From NCBI GenBank assembly GCA_016186205.1, contig JACPMA010000008.1:25805-89804 (forward strand): a stretch of 64,000 nucleotides of DNA, written 5' to 3'. Both the position numbers and the translations under genes were made by a program. Origin of the DNA: Candidatus Peregrinibacteria bacterium. Its GTDB lineage: Bacteria; Patescibacteriota; Gracilibacteria; UBA1369; UM-FILTER-53-11. Positions 25,496 to 41,694 of this stretch are shown in pieces. The number at the start of each line of letters is the position of its first letter. Positions within the stretch are counted from its first letter, which is position 1. The notes under the pieces are model-generated. The model saw only the letters and a program-made list of their open reading frames with translations, had not been told where the DNA came from and ran no database searches.

Positions 25496-25881
25496 CTCGT
25501 TATCTGCTCGACACAAATATCGTCATCTATATCCTCAAAAATGACACAGGCGTCATGAATTTAATCTCGCGTTATTCAGGCGCGCTCTTCTTTATAAGTA
25601 TAGTAACTTGGATTGAAACGCTTGGCGGGAGTTTCCATCATGGAAAAAATATACACGAACTTGCTCATACCTTAGAGGTTTTTTATCGTATACCAATACA
25701 TGAAAAAATTGCTATCTTAAGCGCAAATCTCATACAATCTTCAGCTCTCAAAAAACAAAAATTGCGTTTCCAGGATACTGTAATTGCGGCTACGGCTATT
25801 ACAGAAAATATTCCTCTCATCACAAATAACCCCAAGGATTTCAGGCATTTTAAAGGACTCAAAATTATTTCGCCGAATTAG
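25492..25881 (+). CDS. PIN-domain ribonuclease toxin (VapC-like)
   Basis: This 129-aa PIN-domain protein shows the acidic active site: LLDTNIVIYIL (first Asp), WIETLGG (Glu), RFQDTVIAATAI (second Asp) and ITNNPKDFRH (final Asp). VapC toxins cleave tRNA or rRNA when their antitoxin is lost. It overlaps the antitoxin-like gene by 4 nt (ATGA), and that pair overlaps comM, so all three may be one transcript. The short gap to carB contains the carB promoter. Confidence 0.88.
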   Translation: MTRYLLDTNIVIYILKNDTGVMNLISRYSGALFFISIVTWIETLGGSFHHGKNIHELAHTLEVFYRIPIHEKIAILSANLIQSSALKKQKLRFQDTVIAATAITENIPLITNNPKDFRHFKGLKIISPN

Positions 25882-39510: not shown

Positions 39511-40540
39511 ATTCATCGACTAATTTATCCTCTGCCACCCACTTCACAACTTTTCCTTTGCGAAAAATCACACCCTGCTTCCTTCCGCCGGCAATTCCCC
39601 AATCCGCTTCGCGCGCTTCGCCGGGCCCGTTTACCACGCATCCCATGACAGAAACTTTTATAGGCTTCCCGATCTTTATAAGTCGCGACTCGATTTCCTT
39701 TACGTGTTTGATGAGATCGATTTCAATACGGCCGCATGTCGGACACGAAATCACTTCCGGTTCCTTTGTATATAAATGGAGCGATTTTAAAATCTGCTTA
39801 CAAACTTTTATTTCTTCCACTGGATCTGCAGAAATGGATACGCGAATTGTGTCGCCAATGCCTTGGAGTAAAAGCGCGCCAATCCCGACAGCGCTTTTTA
39901 TACTTCCGTACGGCGGCAAACCGGCTTCGGTAATTCCTAAATGAAACGGGTAATCGCACTGAAGCGCAAGAAGCTGGTAGGCCCGCACTGTTTCCGGCAC
40001 GTCTGAACTTTTTAAAGAAATAACAAAATTCGTAAATTCATATTTTTCAAAAATTTTAATCCAATCGAGCGCAGATTCTGTGAGCGCTTCCGGACTCGGA
40101 CGGCCATATTTATCCCACAATCGCTGCTCAAGCGATCCGGCATTTACGCCAAGCCGCATGGCCACACCGCATCGCTTCGCTTCGCGCAAAATCTGCGCCA
40201 TGCGATCCTCGCCGCCTATATTTCCAGGGTTGATGCGAATTTTATCCGCGCCTTGTTTTATGGATTCCAGCGCAAGCCGATAATCAAAATGAATATCCGC
40301 CACAAGAGGAATGTGAATTTTTGATTTGATCGCCGGAATATTAGCCGCTGCTTCAAAATTCGGCACGGCTATCCGAACCATTTCGCACTCTTCTTTTTCT
40401 AGCCCCAAGATTTGCGCAACAGTCGCATCCACATCTTCCGTACGCGTAGAACACATTGATTGAATTATGACAGGAAAATCGCCACCAGTGGAAAGCGAGC
40501 CGACTTTAACGGTTCGAGTTTTTCTTCGAGGAATAATCAT
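39482..40540 (-). CDS. ispG: 4-hydroxy-3-methylbut-2-enyl-diphosphate synthase
   Basis: IspG is a 4Fe-4S enzyme converting MEcPP to HMBPP. It has the N-terminal TIM barrel (VIIQSMCSTRTEDVDATVAQI, part; PLVADIHFDYRLAL; DKIRINPGNIG) and the C-terminal Fe-S domain with CPTCGRIEIDL and VMGCVVNGPGEAREADWG. The track uses a TTG at 40579, but ATG 40540 (MIIPRRKTRTVKVGS) fits the family start and has CATAAT 9 nt upstream, giving a 352-aa protein. Divergent from infC, with overlapping promoter regions. Confidence 0.95.
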   Translation of the reverse strand: MIIPRRKTRTVKVGSLSTGGDFPVIIQSMCSTRTEDVDATVAQILGLEKEECEMVRIAVPNFEAAANIPAIKSKIHIPLVADIHFDYRLALESIKQGADKIRINPGNIGGEDRMAQILREAKRCGVAMRLGVNAGSLEQRLWDKYGRPSPEALTESALDWIKIFEKYEFTNFVISLKSSDVPETVRAYQLLALQCDYPFHLGITEAGLPPYGSIKSAVGIGALLLQGIGDTIRVSISADPVEEIKVCKQILKSLHLYTKEPEVISCPTCGRIEIDLIKHVKEIESRLIKIGKPIKVSVMGCVVNGPGEAREADWGIAGGRKQGVIFRKGKVVKWVAEDKLVDEFMKMVTSNE

Positions 40541-40549
40541 AGGCACTTT

Positions 40550-40579
40550 ATTATGCACCTCGAAGCTTGACTTACTCAA
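40550..40579 (-). promoter_or_regulatory. ispG promoter, overlapping the infC promoter
   Basis: TTGAGT (40579-40574), an 18-nt spacer and CATAAT (40555-40550), 9 nt before the ispG ATG. Its -35 region interlocks with the infC -35 (40567-40572) in the near palindrome CTTGACTTACTCAAG. Confidence 0.5.
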
Positions 40580-40595
40580 GCCTTTTCCATAAGAT
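40567..40595 (+). promoter_or_regulatory. infC-rpmI-rplT promoter
   Basis: TTGACT at 40567, a 17-nt spacer and TAAGAT at 40590, predicting a start near 40602 and a leader of about 20 nt before the ATT start of infC. Confidence 0.6.
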
Positions 40596-40621
40596 AACCC
40601 TGCTCTTAACCCTTTTGAAGT

Positions 40622-41131
40622 ATTTCAAAATACTTTCGCACGAACGACAGAATCCGCACACCGACCATCCGGCTCATCGATGAAAATGACGAGCAGATAG
40701 GAATCGTGGCGCGCGAAAAAGGGCTTGAAATGGCTCGGGCAAAGGAGCTCGACCTCGTGGAGGTTGCGCCTAATGCAGCGCCTCCGGTATGTAAAATCAT
40801 GGATTTCGGGAAGTTTTTGTACCGGCAAAAAAAGCAGGAACAAAAACAGAAGAAATCGCAGAAACAAGGCGAAGTGAAAGGCATCCGGCTCTCCATGCGG
40901 ACGGATACGCATGACCTTGAAGTTAAAGCGGAGAAGGCAAAAATGTTTCTGAAGGAGCGGAATCTTGTAAAGGTGGCGATGATTCTTCGGGGCCGCGAAC
41001 TCGCCCATATGGATCTTGCGCGCAACAAAATGAAAGTTTTCTCGGATATGCTTCTCGACACAGGAAAAATTGAGGAGATGCCGAAAAAACAGGGGCACAA
41101 TCTCATTATGATGATTACGCCGAAGCAATAA
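40622..41131 (+). CDS. infC: translation initiation factor IF-3 (ATT start)
   Basis: IF-3 keeps ribosomal subunits apart and checks the start codon. The track ORF begins at GTG 40706, inside the conserved N domain. Reading upstream in frame gives FRTNDRIRTPTIRLIDENDE, the canonical IF-3 N-terminus, with no ATG, GTG or TTG before the stop TGA at 40616. The only plausible start is ATT at 40622 (M-S-K-Y-F-R-T-N). E. coli infC also starts with ATT, used for autoregulation, because IF-3 rejects non-standard starts. The C domain includes VKGIRLSMRTDTHDLEVK and MFLKERNLVKVAMILRGRE. Length from ATT is 169 aa, normal. First gene of infC-rpmI-rplT. Confidence 0.93.
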   Translation: MSKYFRTNDRIRTPTIRLIDENDEQIGIVAREKGLEMARAKELDLVEVAPNAAPPVCKIMDFGKFLYRQKKQEQKQKKSQKQGEVKGIRLSMRTDTHDLEVKAEKAKMFLKERNLVKVAMILRGRELAHMDLARNKMKVFSDMLLDTGKIEEMPKKQGHNLIMMITPKQ

Positions 41132-41141
41132 TAAAAGATTT

Positions 41142-41339
41142 ATGAAATTGAAATCACATAGCGGTACAAAGAAACGCGTAAAAATTTCCGGACGCGGAAA
41201 AATTTTGTTCCGAAAACCGGCAAAACAACACCTCCTTATCAATAAGAGCAAACGGCAAAAAGCGTTTCAAAATCCGGGCAAACTTGCGCATCCGTCTGAT
41301 GTAGAAAAGATAAAACGATTATTGCCTACATCTTTTTAA
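41142..41339 (+). CDS. rpmI: 50S ribosomal protein L35
   Basis: A 65-aa basic protein starting MKLKSHSGTKKRVKISGRGK, with the characteristic FRKPAKQHLLINKSKRQK segment. It is 10 nt after infC in the conserved infC-rpmI-rplT order. Confidence 0.97.
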   Translation: MKLKSHSGTKKRVKISGRGKILFRKPAKQHLLINKSKRQKAFQNPGKLAHPSDVEKIKRLLPTSF

Positions 41340-41349
41340 TTAAAATTTT

Positions 41350-41694
41350 ATGCGTGTCAAAGGCGGTGTCGTAACAAAAAGACGCCACAAAAAAATCTTG
41401 AAGCAAGCGAAGGGCTATCGCGATAAGCGTTCCAATGTTTGGAGTTTGGCGCGGCGAGCAGTCATGATCGCAGGCAAACAAGCTTTCATCGGCCGCAAAC
41501 TTAAAAAACGCGATTTTCGGAGCTTATGGATATCGCGTCTCAATGCGGCGCTCAAAATGCATGGTCTTTCCTATAATCGGTTTATATACGCGCTTACGCG
41601 CAAGCGCGTGGGGCTGAATCGAAAAATGCTCTCGGAGCTGGCGATTCAGGAACCGAAAGTGTTTGAGGAAGTGGTGAAATTTGTAAAGGCTTAG
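41350..41694 (+). CDS. rplT: 50S ribosomal protein L20
   Basis: A 114-aa protein starting MRVKGGVVTKRRHKKILKQAKGYRD (part), then SLARRAVMIAGKQAFIGRKLKKRDFRSLWI (part) and INAALKMHGLSYNRFI-like text, all diagnostic for L20, which also acts as an early 23S assembly factor. Last gene of the infC operon. No L20-binding leader structure was recognised. Confidence 0.97.
   Translation: MRVKGGVVTKRRHKKILKQAKGYRDKRSNVWSLARRAVMIAGKQAFIGRKLKKRDFRSLWISRLNAALKMHGLSYNRFIYALTRKRVGLNRKMLSELAIQEPKVFEEVVKFVKA

Follow-up and report, generated by a model that had tools for sequence, protein, structure and literature searches.

The window analysed here is a stretch of 64,000 nucleotides from a Candidatus Peregrinibacteria genome (assembly GCA_016186205.1, contig JACPMA010000008.1, forward-strand positions 25,805 to 89,804). 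It carries the genome's single copy of infC, encoding IF-3, with the genes for L35 and L20 directly 3' in the usual infC-rpmI-rplT order (Table 1). Both IF-3 domains scored above their Pfam cut-offs (102.1 bits for IF3_N and 86.5 bits for IF3_C), and the best named IF-3 matches came from Candidatus Gracilibacteria (68% identity) and Candidatus Peregrinibacteria (65%). The frame runs from an in-frame TGA (40616-40618) through AGT, ATT 40622 and 168 more codons to TAA at 41129-41131. Between the TGA and GTG 40706, the earliest canonical triplet, it holds no ATG, GTG or TTG. As this GTG lies 28 codons 3' of ATT 40622, a full IF-3 N-terminal domain needs a non-canonical start.

Table 1 Features of the infC locus (window coordinates).
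Feature	Position	Strand	Detail or basis
-35 hexamer TTGACT, predicted infC promoter	40567..40572	+	promoter sequence match
-10 hexamer TAAGAT, predicted infC promoter	40590..40595	+	17-nt spacer; promoter sequence match
TTAAC, copy of the order's position-specific leader motif	40606..40610	+	at SD distance; motif count
In-frame TGA closing the infC frame 5'	40616..40618	+	reading-frame check
U at -1, putative partner of A37 of initiator tRNA	40621..40621	+	conservation; pairing inferred
infC (IF-3)	40622..41131	+	169 codons plus TAA; Pfam, conservation boundary, solved IF-3 chain
ATT start codon	40622..40624	+	aligned codon AUH in 52/58 order members
IF3_N domain	40640..40846	+	Pfam, within infC
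GTG, first canonical triplet, rejected as start	40706..40708	+	column conservation, Pfam
IF3_C domain	40871..41125	+	Pfam, within infC
rpmI (bL35)	41142..41339	+	Pfam; next in cluster
rplT (bL20)	41350..41694	+	Pfam

An earlier note, made from the letters of the window, had proposed that the IF-3 N-terminus extends across these 28 codons to ATT 40622 and that a stop lies two codons before it. The frame agreed on both points (precisely, one sense codon, AGT, stands in between), and the extension was borne out by Pfam, by a solved structure and by relatives. Translation from the ATT opens ISKYFRTNDRIRTPTIRLIDENDEQIGIV. IF3_N starts six codons later and spans residues 7-75, matching all but the last of the 70 profile positions (1-69); a start at GTG 40706 confines the match to positions 23-69, so that about one third of the N-terminal domain is lost. 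Furthermore, residue 1 of the solved IF-3 chain 5me0_Y (SKDFIINEQIR...) aligned with the second codon of the frame opened by the ATT (SKYFRTNDRIR).

The start was compared across the order in a sample of 59 genomes, comprising the window's own and 58 relatives, mostly metagenome assemblies; infC was obtained from 58. At the start, seven loci were moved one codon by eye to match the pattern I/M-x-K-x-x-R-x-N. The codon aligned to ATT 40622 was ATA in 28 genes, ATC in 13, ATT in 11, ATG in four and TTG in two. Thus a start without a 3' G (AUH) is kept in 52 of the 58, and the six genomes of the window's own family have ATT twice, ATC three times and ATA once. Pairwise amino acid identity rises from about 0.11 (0.08-0.13 over the eight upstream columns) to 0.81 at the start codon, which is the sole column limited to Ile, Met or Leu codons; conservation vanishes 5' of it. 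On the 3' side, lysine occupies the third position in 53 of 58 sequences, followed by the conserved R and N, and the stretch up to GTG 40706 is conserved as protein (K3 0.83, R6 0.72, N8 0.77, I11 0.78). For 39 of the 52 AUH genes, the interval from the 5' stop, often three codons away or fewer, to the AUH triplet is free of ATG, GTG and TTG. The remaining 13 have a canonical triplet farther 5' in frame or an unclosed frame end, so that for these the frame alone permits a longer product. The alignment of relatives that the earlier note had called for therefore upholds the ATT, and we conclude that infC of this Peregrinibacteria-type bacterium almost certainly begins at ATT 40622 and not at an ATG. 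In most genomes of the order, gene callers restricted to ATG, GTG and TTG would cut off roughly one third of the N-terminal domain of IF-3.

Two other placements of the start were weighed against these columns. Translation could begin at GTG 40706, the first conventional start triplet, with the stretch 5' of it untranslated or open by chance, and the corresponding column does hold ATG or GTG in 29 of 58 genes (24 and 5, respectively). It also holds AAA, AGA, TTC, GTT and GGC, however, and thus does not behave as a start column; relatives starting there were what the earlier note had said would overturn the ATT. Such a start would, moreover, remove IF3_N profile positions 1-22, leave the conserved K3, R6, N8 and I11 outside the protein and conflict with solved IF-3 chains, which reach codon 2 of the ATT reading. 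We regard it as having virtually no chance of being correct. Initiation at another non-canonical triplet close to the ATT, such as ACG 40640 or ATC 40652, is very improbable. Both are in frame and 5' of most of IF3_N, but the ATC column (column 10) is an internal Ile in nearly all relatives and Met in none. Column 0, that of the ATT, is alone in being restricted to codons for Ile, Met or Leu, and no conservation was seen 5' of it. Column conservation across the 58 infC genes accordingly led us to reject GTG 40706, ACG 40640 and ATC 40652.

On a maximum-likelihood tree of the protein, the start codon changed at least 18 times, 16 of these changes being among AUA, AUC and AUU. AUG is confined to a single clade (genus g19, support 100/98), as is UUG (family f7). 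The chance of 16 third-base changes all missing G, at 1/3 each, is about 0.0015, a rough figure since the tree is that of IF-3 itself. AUA makes up 28 of the 52 AUH starts (54%) vs 153 of 615 internal Ile codons (25%) in the same infC genes. As read from these sequences, the turnover is the pattern expected for a start codon constrained to 'AU and not G'.

An AUU, AUC or AUA start of infC is already known from other bacteria. The earlier note had pointed to a non-standard infC start in E. coli and others that serves autoregulation through IF-3 proofreading; E. coli uses ATT with autoregulation, and Streptomyces uses ATC (PMC5472188; for E. coli, Butler 1987 and Sacerdot 1996 as cited there). 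The AUA start of S. aureus has been mapped by retapamulin profiling (PMC13009471) and Listeria starts at ATT (PMC13068326). The gene and codon class are the same here, with AUA the commonest triplet, and the likeness to E. coli extends to the place of the AUH start, the infC-rpmI-rplT cluster and a codon of the class discriminated by IF-3. Triplets with a 3' G evade this discrimination while others do not (PMC4611024). The ordinary initiator tRNA would read ATT 40622, giving a protein that begins with fMet, and since the codon lacks a third-position G, IF-3 would destabilise initiation on its own message. Plentiful IF-3 would then lead to less IF-3 being made and scarce IF-3 to more, a negative feedback as in E. 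coli. Autoregulation is the natural reading of a codon that turns over among AUA, AUC and AUU and is almost never AUG, GUG or UUG, and by analogy with E. coli it is the likely purpose of the ATT.

AUH starts elsewhere usually have a strong Shine-Dalgarno (SD) sequence 5' that offsets the mispaired codon, an arrangement common in mapped cases though not a strict requirement. No such sequence backs the weak codon here: of the 58 infC genes of the order, the 52 with AUH included, not one has GGAG, GAGG or AGGA between -19 and -5. SD sequences preceded 3 of 56 genes in the window vs a background of 8%, and no SD peak was seen 5' of 485 AUG genes in sampled stretches of 18 genomes of the order. Four genomes sampled elsewhere in the phylum, when pooled, did show an SD peak. 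For these counts over AUG genes, and for those of T at -1 and of the UAAY motif given below, a mechanical rule placed each gene start at the first start triplet of a long frame, which makes the figures approximate.

The 3' end of the 16S rRNA in the window's own genome reads GGAATACCTCTTTTT in place of GGATCACCTCCTTT (L173 3160-3202, G000:C18), and its anti-SD core is degenerate (ACCUCUUUUU). In other families of the order the tail ranges from an intact CCTCC through to TCTCT or TTCCC; intact and degenerate states thus stand side by side within the order, and none of the genomes sampled shows SD usage. The state of the anti-SD as a cause of AUG or AUH was rejected, as AUH occurs with both kinds of tail and there is no simple correlation. 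The 16S rRNA gene of the window's genome also carries an insertion of about 0.7 kb (L173 83-3196, G000:C18). Unlike E. coli infC, then, the gene has no SD, in an order without SD usage and a genome with a degenerate anti-SD, and its feedback is assigned by analogy. The persistence of AUH across the order in the absence of SD suggests that IF-3 autocontrol outlasted SD pairing, and two features of the leader emerge as candidate replacements, U at -1 and, at SD distance, the element UAAY.

T occupies position -1 in 45 of the 52 AUH infC genes of the order vs 53% of 485 AUG genes; among AUH infC genes from other lineages of the phylum the count is 8 of 33. In the window's own genome the initiator tRNA carries the loop CTCATAA, so that U at -1 faces A37. 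An extra U(-1):A37 pair supporting weak start codons was reportedly described in chloroplasts by Esposito in 2003, and such a pair would probably help the weak codon here. Three G-C pairs in the anticodon stem are the hallmark of initiator tRNA. In the window's own genome this stem (tRNA at L252 1483-1555, G000:C17) is AGG/CCU, so pair 29-41 is A-U; the CCT side is common to many families of the order, and position 33 is apparently C in two relatives (G043 and G052).

Of 49 non-redundant leaders of AUH infC, 32 have UAAY, often as UUAAC, starting at -15 to -12; shuffles in the interval -18 to -7 gave an expectation of 8.3. G is almost missing at -16 to -6. Ordinary AUG genes of the order show enrichment of the motif as well (115 at -15 to -12 vs 44 and 41 in the four-base bins on either side, by the approximate count above), operon-internal genes among them, and it is possible that UAAY serves the order as a general stand-in for the SD. 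Pairing of the motif to the 16S tail was discarded, no complementary RUUA being present among the tails read. We likewise rejected the idea that UAAY is a -10 box giving rise to a leaderless transcript: A2 and T6, the conserved bases of such a box, are missing, a complete TTGAC-17-TANNNT promoter already lies 5', and the motif precedes operon-internal genes too.

In the window the promoter is a sequence match, TTGACT-17-TAAGAT at 40567-40595, and predicts a transcription start at about 40602 and a leader of about 20 nt. TTGAC-16/18-TANNNT lies 5' of 50 of the 52 AUH infC genes, and little structure is predicted in the leaders. When -30 to +45 was folded, the structures were weak and mutually unlike, with no conserved hairpin near the start. 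Neither the Rfam L20 leader nor any other Rfam element matched 5' of infC, where the predicted leader is only about 20 nt long, and Bacillus-type L20 leader attenuation of the infC operon does not describe this locus. The -35 hexamer is surrounded by an inverted repeat, GCTTGA-CTTAC-TCAAGC (window 40565-40581). On the opposite strand, ispG has a mechanical TTG start at 40579 that is probably too long (region 40538-40579, minus strand); an ATG at 40540 sits 9 nt past a CATAAT -10-like box (40555-40550), so that ispG may be transcribed divergently from the infC promoter with almost no leader.

The UUAAY element, at -16 to -11, would probably assist the weak codon, no SD pairing being available, and a short, G-poor, little-structured leader transcribed from a near-consensus promoter would aid it further. 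Taken as a whole, the account in which infC starts at ATT 40622, is subject to IF-3 feedback and is supported without SD by U(-1), UUAAY and a short leader appears to us quite probable.

Initiation without SD has precedents. The Bacteroidetes member Flavobacterium johnsoniae initiates independently of SD with upstream adenines at -14 to -11 (PMC6847099), near the position of UAAY in this order, and lack of genomic SD enrichment is common to both. Unlike the order described here, in which the anti-SD is eroded in several families and CCUCC is not retained in the window's own genome, Bacteroidetes keep the anti-SD; their context is A at -3 and -6, whereas that of the order is UAAY plus U at -1. 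Ca. Peribacter riflensis, also of the Peregrinibacteria, has been listed among SD-scarce organisms without CCUCC (PMC10783764). The loss of SD and CCUCC is shared with the window's genome; unlike that single record, retained and degenerate anti-SD states coexist here in one order, and infC is absent from that paper. In the openly searchable literature we found neither an SD-free, anti-SD-eroded AUH infC with a context of its own nor the leaderless AUG exception that follows.

In genus g19, all four infC genes start with ATG and carry a -10 box, TACAAT, that ends 8-10 nt 5' of it; the corresponding distance in other infC genes of the order is 23-66 nt, and the sister genus g38 has a normal leader and an ATA start. 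With the -10 box so close, the g19 message would begin at the AUG or no more than about 3 nt from it, and is probably leaderless. In E. coli leaderless mRNAs need AUG, and IF-3 represses them (PMC9031893; PMC4611024). It is suggestive, though a single event, that AUG arises exactly where another IF-3-sensitive feature arises, and g19 offers a natural experiment that could tell which property is selected, the codon as such or IF-3 sensitivity. This bears on the reading in which translation does start at the ATT but IF-3 exerts no feedback, the codon being fixed and weak and in this way keeping the factor scarce. The comparative evidence on the start fits that reading equally, as conservation of AUH could simply hold IF-3 synthesis low. 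However, IF-3 discriminates codons without a 3' G (PMC4611024), and a weak AUH on its own gene would give feedback unless IF-3 had lost this discrimination; in addition, g19 exchanged AUH for AUG only along with an apparently leaderless mRNA. We therefore consider a fixed weak codon unlikely and retain autoregulation as the preferred reading.

Across the phylum, a good -10 box lies 5-9 nt 5' of the start in 8 of 33 AUG vs 2 of 85 AUH infC genes, members of family f27 being prominent among the former; the association is only moderate (rank test p = 0.005), and relatives are not independent. A broader proposal, which we advance tentatively and would not yet favour, is that in an order without SD two interchangeable arrangements preserve the sensitivity of infC to IF-3: U-AUH behind a short leader in most members, and a leaderless AUG in g19, where codon discrimination would have been exchanged for IF-3 repression of leaderless mRNA. 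Some AUG infC genes elsewhere in the phylum would be alike, and UAAY would be a general SD substitute.

Among 109 further infC genes of the phylum, 44 have AUH triplets but no ATG, GTG or TTG between the 5' stop and the domain. For 33 the AUH lies at the usual distance, and an SD-like site precedes 21 of these. From sequence, AUH starts of infC thus appear widespread in the phylum, and the predicted SD-free form is typical of this order. Strong SD-like sites accompany AUH infC starts at five loci from other lineages of the phylum. Finally, a contig labelled Phycisphaerae (L034, about position 1445) encodes an IF-3 whose aligned start reads ATC and has an SD-like AGGAGA 5' of it; a TTG lies eight codons farther 5'.
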